Source: a virus
Length of the DNA stretch: 39,608 nt
IMG/VR virus record: IMGVR_UViG_3300031643_000005
Span: 1 to 39,608 of that record
Reading direction: 5' to 3' (one strand)
Of the stretch, positions 21,190-31,227 are shown one piece after another (the stretch's first letter is position 1; every line of letters starts with the position of its first letter). The position numbers were made by a program, and so were the translations under genes. The notes below the pieces were generated by a model. That model was given only the letters and a program-made list of their open reading frames with translations. It was not told the DNA's origin and made no database searches.

Positions 21190-22932
21190 CTATGCCTTCC
21201 ATCTGTGGACAATGAAGCATCTGCAGTTTTTGACAATCACCCCAGATGCCATGTATATCCCTCCCACACCAGCTTGGAGGTCATAGACATGTCCCGAATA
21301 GTCGAAATGCCGAACATCTACGATTTGCATCGGCGCTATATGGCCGGCGAGACTGCCAGTCAGCTGGCCCTGGAGTATGGCTGTCATGCCAATACGATCC
21401 TCGGGCGCTTCCGTCGCGCGGGATTGCCACGGCTGCCGACGGGAGGCCAACAGCGCGACCGGATCGCTATTCCTGGGCTCGACTTGTTGTTGGCCCGCTA
21501 TTTGGCCGGAGAGTCTGAGAATGCCCTCGCGCATGAGGCCGGGGCCAATCGCTCGACTTTCCGCCGTCGCTTGTTGAAGGCGGATATTACTCCTCGCGGC
21601 CGCAGCCTGGCCGGACACCTCAAATGGGACCGGATGTCTGCTCTTCAGCGAGAGGCCCAGGTTAGAGCCGCCCATGCCGCCAATGTCGGGCGCATCCCGT
21701 CGTGGGAGGAACGGCGCCATCAGGCCCAAACCCGCCAGAGCCGGCTGTTGACCATTAGCCCTGTAGAGCGCACGCTGGCCACCGGGCTGGCTGCCCACGG
21801 GCTTATCCCCATCGCACAATATGCTCTTGGGATATACAATATTGACATCGCCCTCGATGCAAGCGCCCTCGCCGTGGAGGTCTTCGGTGGCAAGTGGCAT
21901 GCGTTTGGTCGCCATCGCAGCCGATTCTTTGAGCGTACGATATATATCCTCAACAGCGGCTGGCACCTCTTGGTCGTTTGGGTCGACGGGAAACATTATC
22001 CCTTGGGCGCTGCCGCCGTAGAATATATAATCGCCCTCGCGAAGGACATCAGCCGCAACCCAGCCACGCCCCGTCAATATCGGGTGATTCTTGGTAACGG
22101 TGAGCCTGCTCCCGTTCTCAAGACGCATCTCAACCGCCCCGCCGACATAGAACGATTGCACTGCCGCTTCCGCGCCCCCGGGCACTATGACTATATTCCC
22201 GGGTAGAATGCATCCTGGATGCCGAGGCACCCAGTCCGCGCCTGGCGAGAGTTCAGCCCACCTGTTTTGCGGCTGCCCATCCAGGGGGGCACAGAGAGGA
22301 CACACCTTTTCGTCTTTCACTGTCTGCCAGTAGGCCGTGAGTTCTAATCCCGCCTCCTGGGCCCGCGCTGCCATCATGCGCTCGCCCTCACCATATGCTC
22401 GGGTAACCTCGGTCACCGCGATACTCTCGGCGCGTTGCGGGCCGAACGTCGGCGTTAGCTCGCGTCGGAGGTCGCCAATCGTCTGCCCCGGCGTGTCTAT
22501 GAACTGTGGCACCTTCTGGCGCAAAACCTTCTGACTATATTCGTTCAAGCCCGTCACTAGATCATAGCTATAGGTCGTCGCCCATTCTGCTGCATCGAGA
22601 GCCACTAGCGCCCAGTCCACGCCCACGGGCAGGGCTGCATAGGTTGTCGCCGCCGCTACCAAGGCCATACGCTCCAACTCGGGCCGGAGTATCCGCACGA
22701 CCTCTTGCAATTCCGCCGACCAGAAGATGGCATCACTGAGCCCCGCTATGTCCGGGGGCCATCCCAGGAGTGCTAGAACCCGACGCAGTTGTTGGCCCAA
22801 CGACAGCCGCAGAGTCCGTTCCAGTTTCGTCTCGTCTTGATCCTTCGCGTCCGCGTTCGGGTCTTTTTCCCCGCTCGCCGTCTCTCGGACGGCTTTGGCG
22901 AAAAAAGGGCGACTGGAAAGCCGCGCGCACAT
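21190..22932 (-). CDS. MuF-type head morphogenesis protein interrupted by an intein
   Basis: The 580-residue precursor has extein residues 1-240 and 570-580. The N-extein contains the helical region (ALVALDAAEWATTYSYDLV, IGDLRRELTPTFGPQRAESIAVTEVTRAYGEGE) and the DEKVCPLCAPLDGQ half of the SPP1 gp7/MuF zinc motif. The other half, HPG|CRC, is split by the intein (residues 241-569). After splicing, the protein would be about 251 residues, within the family range. MuF proteins bind the portal and sit inside the head. The start is uncertain: the ATG at 22932 has only a weak AGAGG and overlaps the portal frame by 200 bases, and portal and MuF may be joined by a +1 shift near 22900. The stop is at 21190-21192. 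Confidence 0.9.
   Translation of the reverse strand: MCARLSSRPFFAKAVRETASGEKDPNADAKDQDETKLERTLRLSLGQQLRRVLALLGWPPDIAGLSDAIFWSAELQEVVRILRPELERMALVAAATTYAALPVGVDWALVALDAAEWATTYSYDLVTGLNEYSQKVLRQKVPQFIDTPGQTIGDLRRELTPTFGPQRAESIAVTEVTRAYGEGERMMAARAQEAGLELTAYWQTVKDEKVCPLCAPLDGQPQNRWAELSPGADWVPRHPGCILPGNIVIVPGGAEAAVQSFYVGGAVEMRLENGSRLTVTKNHPILTGRGWVAADVLREGDYIFYGGSAQGIMFPVDPNDQEVPAAVEDIYRTLKESAAMATKRMPLATEDLHGEGACIEGDVNIVYPKSILCDGDKPVGSQPGGQRALYRANGQQPALAGLGLMAPFLPRRDAPDIGGMGGSNLGLSLKSRHPVPFEVSGQAAAARSNIRLQQATAESRAIGPGLMREGILRLSGQIAGQQQVEPRNSDPVALLASRRQPWQSRATEAPEDRIGMTAILQGQLTGSLAGHIAPMQIVDVRHFDYSGHVYDLQAGVGGIYMASGVIVKNCRCFIVHRWKA
21230..21259 (+). promoter_or_regulatory. Sigma70-type promoter of the antisense endonuclease gene
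   Basis: On the plus strand TTGACA (21230-21235) is followed after 18 bases by TATATC (21254-21259), preceded by TG one base before it. GGAGG at 21276-21280 and the ATG at 21289 follow at proper distances. Everything lies inside the intein. The -35 is antisense to codons I-V-K just before the terminal Asn, and the -10 is antisense to G-I-Y. Confidence 0.65.
21289..22206 (+). CDS. Putative Vsr/DUF559-like homing endonuclease, encoded antisense within the intein
   Basis: This is the only convincing plus-strand gene in the window, 305 residues. The ATG at 21289 follows GGAGG by eight bases; an earlier in-frame ATG at 21175 lies outside the intein and is rejected. Residues 8-45 and 62-105 are two related HTH modules (YMAGETASQLALEYGCHANT and YLAGESENALAHEAGANRST). 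Residues 157-255 are a PD-(D/E)XK-type core resembling Vsr/DUF559 nucleases: Glu160 (SPVERTL), Asp186 (YNIDIAL), Glu197 (AVEVFGG), His204 (KWHAFGRH), and GWHLLVVWVDGKHYPL. The C-terminal 50 residues lie opposite intein blocks A and B. It stops with TAG antisense to the third intein codon. It presumably cuts intein-free MuF alleles to drive homing. The nuclease family is inferred from motifs, not from a search. Confidence 0.85.
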   Translation: MSRIVEMPNIYDLHRRYMAGETASQLALEYGCHANTILGRFRRAGLPRLPTGGQQRDRIAIPGLDLLLARYLAGESENALAHEAGANRSTFRRRLLKADITPRGRSLAGHLKWDRMSALQREAQVRAAHAANVGRIPSWEERRHQAQTRQSRLLTISPVERTLATGLAAHGLIPIAQYALGIYNIDIALDASALAVEVFGGKWHAFGRHRSRFFERTIYILNSGWHLLVVWVDGKHYPLGAAAVEYIIALAKDISRNPATPRQYRVILGNGEPAPVLKTHLNRPADIERLHCRFRAPGHYDYIPG

Positions 22933-29464: not shown

Positions 29465-29920
29465 TCACCCCCCCAATCCCTTTACAAGGCTGGCCACGCG
29501 CTCCGGATCCAGCTCCGCCAGAGCGATCCAGAACTGGCCATCCGCTGCAAGCTCCGCGTCCTCTCCGAGGCCAAAGAACTCTCGGTCCGCCGCTGCACGG
29601 GCGGAGGCAATGACCGCCCCCGCCAACCGCTGAACAGGATCAACGTCAGCGGTTAGGTTCTGGATCCGCGCCGCCATCCCCTTCACGTTACCACCTTGCC
29701 CGTCCCACCAAGCAGAGATGGCCCTGGTGCGCCTCGGCCCCCACGAGATCAAGCCTTCTTTGACAGTCGGCATCCCCACATGATTGGTTCTATGGCGCCG
29801 CAAGGATTCCTTGGGAAGGCCATACCGCTGAGCCAACTTGTATGGCGTAACGCCCTCGCGCAATGCCTTGTCGATGGCTTCGCGGTCCGGATGCTCACAA
29901 ACGCTACACGATTTAGCCAC
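29465..29920 (-). CDS. HTH DNA-binding protein with N-terminal Cys pair
   Basis: The 151-residue protein starts SCSVCEHPDREAIDKALREG and continues VTPYKLAQRYGLPKESLRRHRTNHV. This motif set (C-x2-C-x-HP, then HTH, then a His-rich end) is common in phage-encoded DNA-binding proteins. The C-terminal half is helical (LAGAVIASARAAADREFFGLG). The start is probably GTG at 29920, with GAGGAGG 15 bases upstream. It could be a regulator or a terminase-like recognition protein. It follows the pentanucleotide array. Confidence 0.75.
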   Translation of the reverse strand: MAKSCSVCEHPDREAIDKALREGVTPYKLAQRYGLPKESLRRHRTNHVGMPTVKEGLISWGPRRTRAISAWWDGQGGNVKGMAARIQNLTADVDPVQRLAGAVIASARAAADREFFGLGEDAELAADGQFWIALAELDPERVASLVKGLGG

Positions 29921-29975
29921 TGGGATTCCGTCGGCCTCCTCTCACATTTTAGGGCCTGTTTCCGCCACTCGTCAA

Positions 29976-30565
29976 CGTTGCCATCGCTGTGCCTATGCTG
30001 GGCTGCGCGTCGCCCCGCAGCGCCTCGCCCTTGCTGTGCTGCGCGCTGCTGCGCCGTGCCCCGCCTTTGCTGTGCCGCGCGCTGCAGCGCCCCGCCACGC
30101 CTTTGCTGTGCCACGCATTGCCGCGCTGTGCCCTTGCTGTGCTGCGCGCTGCTCCGCCGTGCCCCGCCTTTGCTTTGCTCGGCACCGCGGCGCAACGCCG
30201 CGCTTGGCCTTTGCTGCGCTTGGCTCTGCGTTGCCATTGCTGTGCCCTTGCTGTGCTGTGCCCAGCCGCGCCCAGCCCCGCCCCGCCTTTGCTATGCCGC
30301 GCCCAGCCCCGCCACGCGCTGCCTTTGCTTTGCCCTGCCTCGCTTTGCTCCGCACCGCGCAGCCGCGCCCCGCCTTTGCTGTGCCTTTGCTTTGCTCGGC
30401 ACCGCGGCGCATCGCCGCGCTGCGCCCCGCCTTTGCTGTGCGACGCATCGCCGTGCGTCGCCCTTGCTGTGCTGCGCGCTGCTCCGCGCTGCAGCGCGTC
30501 GCCCGGCCACGCCTTTGCTGTGCAGCGCGTCGCCGCGGCGACGCGCTGCATTGCATCGCTATCGC
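29976..30565. repeat. Pentanucleotide-phased array, (NNNGC)n on the plus strand
   Basis: On the plus strand GC recurs every five bases for about 590 bases (for example TGTGC TGCGC GCTGC TGCGC CGTGC CCCGC). About every 2-10 units one extra C precedes a unit of type TTTGC, CTTGC or ATTGC. The other three positions vary widely, so this is not a simple microsatellite. All six frames are largely open, because TA is rare, and give five-residue-periodic A/Q/R/K or A/C/P/L peptides. No frame is a convincing gene. This stretch accounts for the gap between the genes at 29920 and 30559. Confidence 0.9.
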
Positions 30566-31227
30566 TTTGTCAACTCATACTCGAAGGAACCCCACCCCCC
30601 GTTTCTCCACTGCCCGAGACCACGCAGCGCGCCGTAAGTGAACCATTCCTCTAGCAGGCTTTGCTTCACCACCCCGAGAATCAATACGCGAAATTCCATG
30701 GTGGTGCCTGCCGGGACGGCGATGCTCCTTGCCAATGCGACGCGCTCGCCTTGTGCCGTTTGTCCACGCAATGGCCGCGTAAGCACGCCCTCGTCGCCTG
30801 CCCATTCCCAGAGCCCCATTGTCGATACGGGCGACTCACTGGCGTCTTGCCCCTTCAGGCCCAGAGGAATTAGCCGTGGCTCTACAAATACCATCCCATC
30901 GATGACCTTCTTGTAGGCCCGCACCTTGGCGCTTGCCGAGCTAGTATCGCGCCGAAGCATCCCGCAGGCGTCCTTGAAAAACCCTTTCAGCACGTAGTCA
31001 TACAATGCAGGCTCCCCGACAGGTGTCCTGTGGAATCCTGTCGTGCCCTTCGTCGTCTCCTCATCGATCCCCTCAAATCCCAATGCCGCCGATTCGAGTT
31101 CGTCCGCCGCCTGCTCTGGGTCGATCCCCCGATGATCTATAATCCATCTCCGATAGAGCTCAGGATCAAGTGGCACTGCGCCTAGCAGCGCCCTTGTGAA
31201 TGTCAGTTGCACATCGTAGCGGTCCAT
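30559..31227 (-). CDS. Conserved phage protein with RAMP-like glycine-rich C-terminus (222 aa)
   Basis: GGGGAGG precedes the ATG at 31227. The N-terminus MDRYDVQLTFTRALLGAVPLDPELYRRWI has a form I know from many unnamed phage proteins (LTFT-x-LLG-x-VP-x-DP). The C-terminus reads YGALRGLGQWRNGGWGSFEYEL, a Gly/aromatic loop reminiscent of RAMP-fold RNA-binding proteins. Similarity to Cas RAMPs is only a resemblance, and there is no CRISPR array here. The last codons overlap the first units of the pentanucleotide array. Confidence 0.75.
   Translation of the reverse strand: MDRYDVQLTFTRALLGAVPLDPELYRRWIIDHRGIDPEQAADELESAALGFEGIDEETTKGTTGFHRTPVGEPALYDYVLKGFFKDACGMLRRDTSSASAKVRAYKKVIDGMVFVEPRLIPLGLKGQDASESPVSTMGLWEWAGDEGVLTRPLRGQTAQGERVALARSIAVPAGTTMEFRVLILGVVKQSLLEEWFTYGALRGLGQWRNGGWGSFEYELTKR

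Follow-up and report, generated by a model that had tools for sequence, protein, structure and literature searches.

A phage intein with a putative homing endonuclease gene nested antisense and in codon register

The intein-bearing MuF gene and its opposite strand

The window, which is the whole stretch of DNA analysed (IMGVR_UViG_3300031643_000005, positions 1 to 39,608; 39,608 nucleotides), contains on its minus strand a gene for a MuF-like head protein that is interrupted by an intein. The features of this gene are as follows.

21190-22932, minus strand: gene for the MuF-like head protein, 580 aa, interrupted by the intein (Pfam Phage_Mu_F, E 2e-8)
22213-22932 and 21193-21225, minus strand: MuF N-extein and C-extein, respectively
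21226-22212, minus strand: intein, 329 aa, from Cys1 to Asn329, followed by the +1 Cys; equivalent to MuF residues 241-569
22084-22101, minus strand: intein block B, TVTKNH, with T40, N42, and H43 invariant in 12 aligned relatives
21274-21294, minus strand: intein block F, GHVYDLQ; in reverse complement, it forms the Shine-Dalgarno sequence and start codon of the nuclease gene
21226-21243, minus strand: intein block G, GVIVKN, then Cys

An earlier note on this DNA had placed the intein at these coordinates and had listed Cys1, block B (TVTKNH), block F (VYDLQ), the terminal Asn, and the +1 Cys; all of these hold. The Cys1 codon occupies 22210-22212, and the nucleophiles are Cys1 and the +1 Cys, with the terminal Asn. 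Cys1 and the terminal Asn are unchanged in 12 of 12 aligned inteins, in which T40, N42, H43, and block F are likewise invariant. When residues 241-569 were compared with intein HMMs, as the note had proposed, the intein alone matched Pfam Intein_splicing (E 2.4e-8), but its score of 34.4 bits falls just below the gathering cutoff of 35.8. Domain-family searches of the MuF/intein frame, including Pfam, returned no endonuclease family, in agreement with the note's reading of that frame. The window intein ends in V-K-N, without the usual penultimate His; this His is common in block G, albeit neither universal nor strictly defining for inteins, and relatives end in VHN or AHN in many cases and in SN or KN in others.

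AF2 predicted a Hint fold for the intein, with a match to a RecA mini-intein at probability 1.00. Most of residues 1-130 and 290-329 is modelled as folded with confidence, and these segments match mini-inteins; the linker between them (residues 131-289) is unfolded in the model, with pLDDT below 50. Elsewhere in the window, positions 29465-31227 hold several long overlapping frames on both strands, which may be ordinary at such GC content.

On the plus strand, the intein segment contains a second gene, with the following features.

21289-22206, plus strand: predicted antisense homing endonuclease gene, 305 aa, with stop codon TAG at 22204-22206
21276-21280, plus strand: Shine-Dalgarno sequence GGAGG, 8 bases before the ATG at 21289, conserved in relatives
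21316-21417, plus strand: first HTH module, residues 10-43, helices in the AF2 model
21478-21579, plus strand: second HTH module, residues 64-97, helices in the AF2 model; a resolvase-type HTH in relatives
21760-22056, plus strand: nuclease core of the Vsr/I-Bth0305I type, residues 158-256, with invariant D186 (21844-21846) and E197 (21877-21879)

This gene lies wholly inside the intein. The 305-residue protein with two HTH modules and a nuclease core that had been read from the sequence stands, with one correction: its stop codon is separated from the Cys1 codon by 3 bases rather than 4. Codons on the two strands share triplets, with intein residue i opposite nuclease residue 309 - i, so position 1 of a codon on one strand is opposite position 3 on the other.

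Structure models and scans were based on alignments of 9 and 12 sequences, as the alignment of 18 relatives was too diverse for collection scans. Based on Pfam, the window nuclease matches MTES_1575, a Vsr-like nuclease family (E 5.5e-5); this family was also found in 11 of the 18 relatives (best E 4.3e-8), alongside DUF559 in three, Vsr in one, and HTH families in many. Neither PHROGs nor NCBIfam returned a specific match to the nuclease. The AF2 model, built from nine sequences, has a mean pLDDT of 78 and shows two HTH modules and an alpha/beta core. Using Foldseek against the PDB, we identified the I-Bth0305I catalytic domain (probability 1.00, with a modest E of 3e-3), Vsr (probability 1.00), and NGO0050 (probability 0.99) as the best matches. 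A phmmer search of the PDB with the single protein found no match, whereas a profile of the 18 relatives matched NGO0050 (E 4e-6) and I-Bth0305I (E 0.003). A nuclease fold had been set as a check on the earlier interpretation, and the predicted structure is of the homing endonuclease type (I-Bth0305I/Vsr). Residues Y183, N184, D186, E197, R216, and G224 are invariant across the 18 relatives, and D186 and E197 are, from the Vsr-type fold, the putative catalytic residues.

Coding and selection on the two strands

The intein frame is open across the nuclease in 43 of 45 scored nuclease ORFs (GC 0.33-0.68), and the remaining two antisense frames of these ORFs contain many stops. The exceptions are L037, with one stop in the intein register, and the free-standing nuclease of Acinetobacter phage BUCT629 (L055), with 12. 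We calculated expected stop counts from each locus's own Leu and Ser codon usage. In the window nuclease gene, ~10 in-register stops were expected and none was seen (log10P -4.9); across 26 nuclease genes, ~207 TTA, CTA, or TCA codons, which are stops on the other strand, were expected and none was found. The log10P summed over the 26 loci is -108, a value that overstates independence as the loci are related. The nuclease's own stop codon arises opposite a TTA, CTA, or TCA codon close to where the intein begins; in all of the 26 loci for which both ends were mapped, it falls within the intein, at a distance of 3-96 bases from the intein end.

Among close relatives, differences in the exteins fall at MuF codon position 3; across the nuclease gene, they move to intein position 1, which is nuclease position 3. 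We scored amino-acid change as observed/expected against random substitution, with pooled counts. For the two exteins, this ratio was 0.45 and 0.55 in the MuF frame and 1.08-1.09 antisense. Over the nuclease core, it was 0.83 in the intein frame and 0.67 in the nuclease frame, and over the HTH part, it was 0.96 and 0.52, respectively. Amino-acid constraint changes strand: it lies in the MuF frame in the exteins and in the nuclease frame opposite the intein linker. The values of 0.96 and 0.52 suggest that the stretch of intein facing the HTH modules is an unconstrained linker, required only to remain open, whereas the nuclease is conserved; the unfolded linker in the intein model agrees with this neutral intein frame. 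Conservation of the antisense frame, on which the earlier interpretation depended, was thus found in related loci both as a frame kept open and as purifying selection.

A shadow ORF, the conservation of which merely mirrors that of the intein, might look similar, given that in GC-rich genes the antisense frame in the same register often lacks stops; at a P. aeruginosa phage locus (L022, GC 0.62), no stop interrupts the plus frame for 1054 codons. However, the frame is also open at GC 0.33-0.48, 207 stops were expected against none found, and over the HTH part it is the nuclease frame that is more constrained and the intein frame that is neutral. The protein also has a recognisable nuclease family and fold, as well as a free-standing relative in phage BUCT629. 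We consider a shadow ORF extremely improbable: its chance occurrence is ruled out by the stop, codon-position, and substitution tests, and a mirror of intein conservation is ruled out by the HTH part, where the nuclease frame is constrained and the intein frame is neutral. At the sequence level, the evidence for dual coding is strong.

Block F is where the two readings meet. In reverse complement, the codons for G-H-V-Y-N/D-L-Q/E supply a Shine-Dalgarno sequence, a spacer, and ATG: TTGGAGGTTATAAACATG. The His codon is CAT or CAC in 29 of 35 distinct block F sequences, which yields ATG or GTG. For the Leu, CTC was used in 18 of the 23 cases examined, against an expected 4.4 (P 1e-10), even at loci where CTC is nearly unused in the rest of the gene (L018, L020, L031). 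At L057, the Shine-Dalgarno sequence is made from other codons. The earlier note had suggested that the nuclease can be made without late transcription; a promoter scan of the plus strand found no sigma-70-like site for the nuclease gene, so that such independent expression is at most a possibility. The contigs L012 and L013 are near-identical; a His to Tyr substitution in block F sets them apart and removes the nuclease ATG from L012, a decay state.

Relatives, empty alleles, and transfer

We used tblastn to identify 107 phage records with a relative of the nuclease; in almost all of them, it lies opposite a gene whose annotation is head morphogenesis, minor capsid, or hypothetical protein. 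A second query added more records. Further relatives came from IMG/VR loci, a Chloroflexota plasmid/phage, and a cyanobacterial contig. The host genes are of at least three kinds, namely MuF, a UDG-DNA polymerase A fusion (L010, L042), and dCMP deaminase (Rctr197k), and in kagunaviruses MuF is interrupted at two different sites. The arrangement is far more widespread than the single case that the earlier note had described: it extends to roughly 100 phages with sequenced genomes, in host genes of three kinds. L043 represents another decay state, with a stop in the nuclease and an intein frame that is still open. The records of phages Snoke and fEg-Eco06 annotate the intein but not the nuclease, and those of BUCT629 and vB_StyS-sam list an unnamed plus-strand ORF.

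In BUCT629 (L055, 2501-4101), a free-standing nuclease gene is convergent with an intein-free MuF gene, with a 7-base overlap, and could be an ancestor or a derivative of the antisense unit. In a Scytonema contig (L046, 2115-4904, minus strand), MuF carries two consecutive Hint elements, one PT-HINT/intein-like and the other an intein with an antisense nuclease. In Virus Rctr197k (L051, 365-1717), the dCMP deaminase that carries the intein has been given the name head morphogenesis protein, apparently on account of its similarity to MuF inteins. In Rhodococcus phage REQ3 (L052, 1179-2957), the intein begins with Ala rather than Cys (HPN-AVLEG) and the nuclease match is partial; this intein may be class-3-like or decayed.

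Intein-free alleles, which had been named as something to look for, were found as precise in-frame absences. At the Snoke-type site, they are present in KMB35, ER7, fEg-Eco06, and 12 IMG/VR loci; for the window MuF, a distant intein-free relative (L077) reads PPAHPR-CRC across the junction. The inteins of Snoke (E. coli, Kagunavirus) and vB_StyS-sam (Salmonella, Jerseyvirus) are 95.7% identical within flanks that are 67% and 78% identical, which indicates that the unit moves; the Snoke flanks are ~90% identical to those of the intein-free KMB35. The first codon after the insertion is a TCN serine codon in 5 of 5 intein-bearing alleles and AGY in 14 of 15 intein-free ones, a split that, resting on five intein-bearing alleles, fits a short co-converted flank. 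The intein ends and the nuclease, with the overlapping tail excluded, co-diverge (Mantel r 0.79, 0 of 2000 permutations).

These observations bear on two other explanations. The first is that the intein has lost its splicing activity although the nuclease is genuine, a dead insertion being kept open because the head protein works with the insert. The missing penultimate His in the window and the Ala in place of Cys1 in phage REQ3 would fit such a state; however, Cys1, T40, N42, H43, block F, and the terminal Asn are invariant over very divergent inteins, and the frame has been kept open over thousands of phage generations. Moreover, the insertions interrupt conserved motifs in MuF, in UDG-PolA, and in dCMP deaminase, at positions where failure to splice would be expected to do harm, and the intein-free alleles join precisely. 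We judge loss of splicing to be very unlikely.

The second explanation, which we likewise consider very unlikely, is that both genes are active and the nuclease serves in exclusion of co-infecting phages or in regulation of the late operon, rather than in homing of this intein. Phage homing-type nucleases can act in marker exclusion, and the HTH modules could also repress. Nevertheless, the closest fold is that of a homing endonuclease, and the patchy presence, precise empty alleles, intergenus transfer, and short co-converted flank fit homing.

Proposed mechanism and comparison with known systems

The element is very probably a mobile intein that carries a whole homing endonuclease gene antisense, nested between its splice ends and in codon register. 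Splicing, cleavage of the empty site, and expression of the nuclease are what we infer from these sequences, and the cycle would be as follows. The minus strand would be translated as MuF-intein-MuF, and the Hint ends (about residues 1-130 and 290-329) would excise the intein, the middle of which would serve only as an unfolded linker in which no stop may occur. Translation from a separate ribosome-binding site on the plus strand, formed by block F in reverse complement, would yield the Vsr/I-Bth0305I-type endonuclease and its two HTH modules. During co-infection, the endonuclease would cleave MuF alleles that lack the intein, close to the insertion site, and the whole unit would be copied into the cut allele by repair. 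The earlier note's proposal that splicing and homing functions lie on opposite strands of the same DNA is supported by the antisense-frame conservation, the predicted fold, and the intein-free alleles; minimal length may be an advantage of this layout.

With good confidence, we interpret the relatives as a large and old family of mobile inteins with splicing and homing in fully overlapping, in-register antisense genes and with block F doubling as the ribosome-binding site and start of the nuclease, kept in phages of Actinobacteria, Proteobacteria, Chloroflexota, Cyanobacteria, and others. Such a family would represent a second way to build a mobile intein, in which the endonuclease is uncoupled from the splicing polypeptide within the same DNA segment. 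It would also provide a case of full antisense dual coding that has been replicated many times in nature, with measurable selection on each strand, so that it could be tested how overlapping genes arise and what limits them. An unannotated nuclease gene would be hidden in phage inteins so far regarded as endonuclease-free, and in capsid genes recorded as coding for a single long protein; examples include culturable E. coli and Salmonella phages that have intein-free sister phages.

Searches of the open-access literature returned no account of a nuclease encoded antisense inside an intein and no earlier description of a fully overlapping antisense homing gene in a mobile intein. InBase lists a MupF intein of phage Aaphi23, so single members of the family were already known as inteins. 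Canonical large mobile inteins, such as the TerL inteins of mycobacteriophages, carry an in-frame LAGLIDADG or HNH endonuclease (PMC5050341). The elements described here resemble them in having Hint blocks at both ends with endonuclease sequence between blocks B and F, and in their insertion into conserved phage genes, intein-free sister alleles, and lateral transfer. They differ in that the endonuclease, a separate polypeptide of the Vsr/PD-(D/E)XK type, is encoded by the opposite strand and has a ribosome-binding site, start, and stop of its own.

I-Bth0305I, reported as a protein of a phage mobile intron, is an EDxHD/Vsr-type homing endonuclease with tethered DNA-binding modules (PMC3943268). 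The window protein, as known from its model, shares the catalytic fold (Foldseek probability 1.00) and the tethered modules; however, proteins of the window type are antisense within inteins, and their sequence likeness to I-Bth0305I is detected by profile only (E 0.003). The I-Bth0305I family is said to be linked to split inteins. In the fractured genes reportedly described by Dassa et al. in 2009, a separate Vsr-type nuclease gene lies between the halves of a split intein. There too the intein and a Vsr-type nuclease are separate products of one locus, whereas the window intein is unbroken and every base of the nuclease gene lies within it.

A parallel in layout comes from group I introns in the nuclear rDNA of Porphyra, in which the endonuclease gene is on the complementary strand (PMC2585584). 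Both systems place a splicing element and a homing gene on opposite strands of one mobile unit. Because introns splice as RNA, their sense strand needs no open frame; in the inteins described here, the sense frame is open and encodes the intein blocks, and since both strands must be translated, true dual coding is forced.
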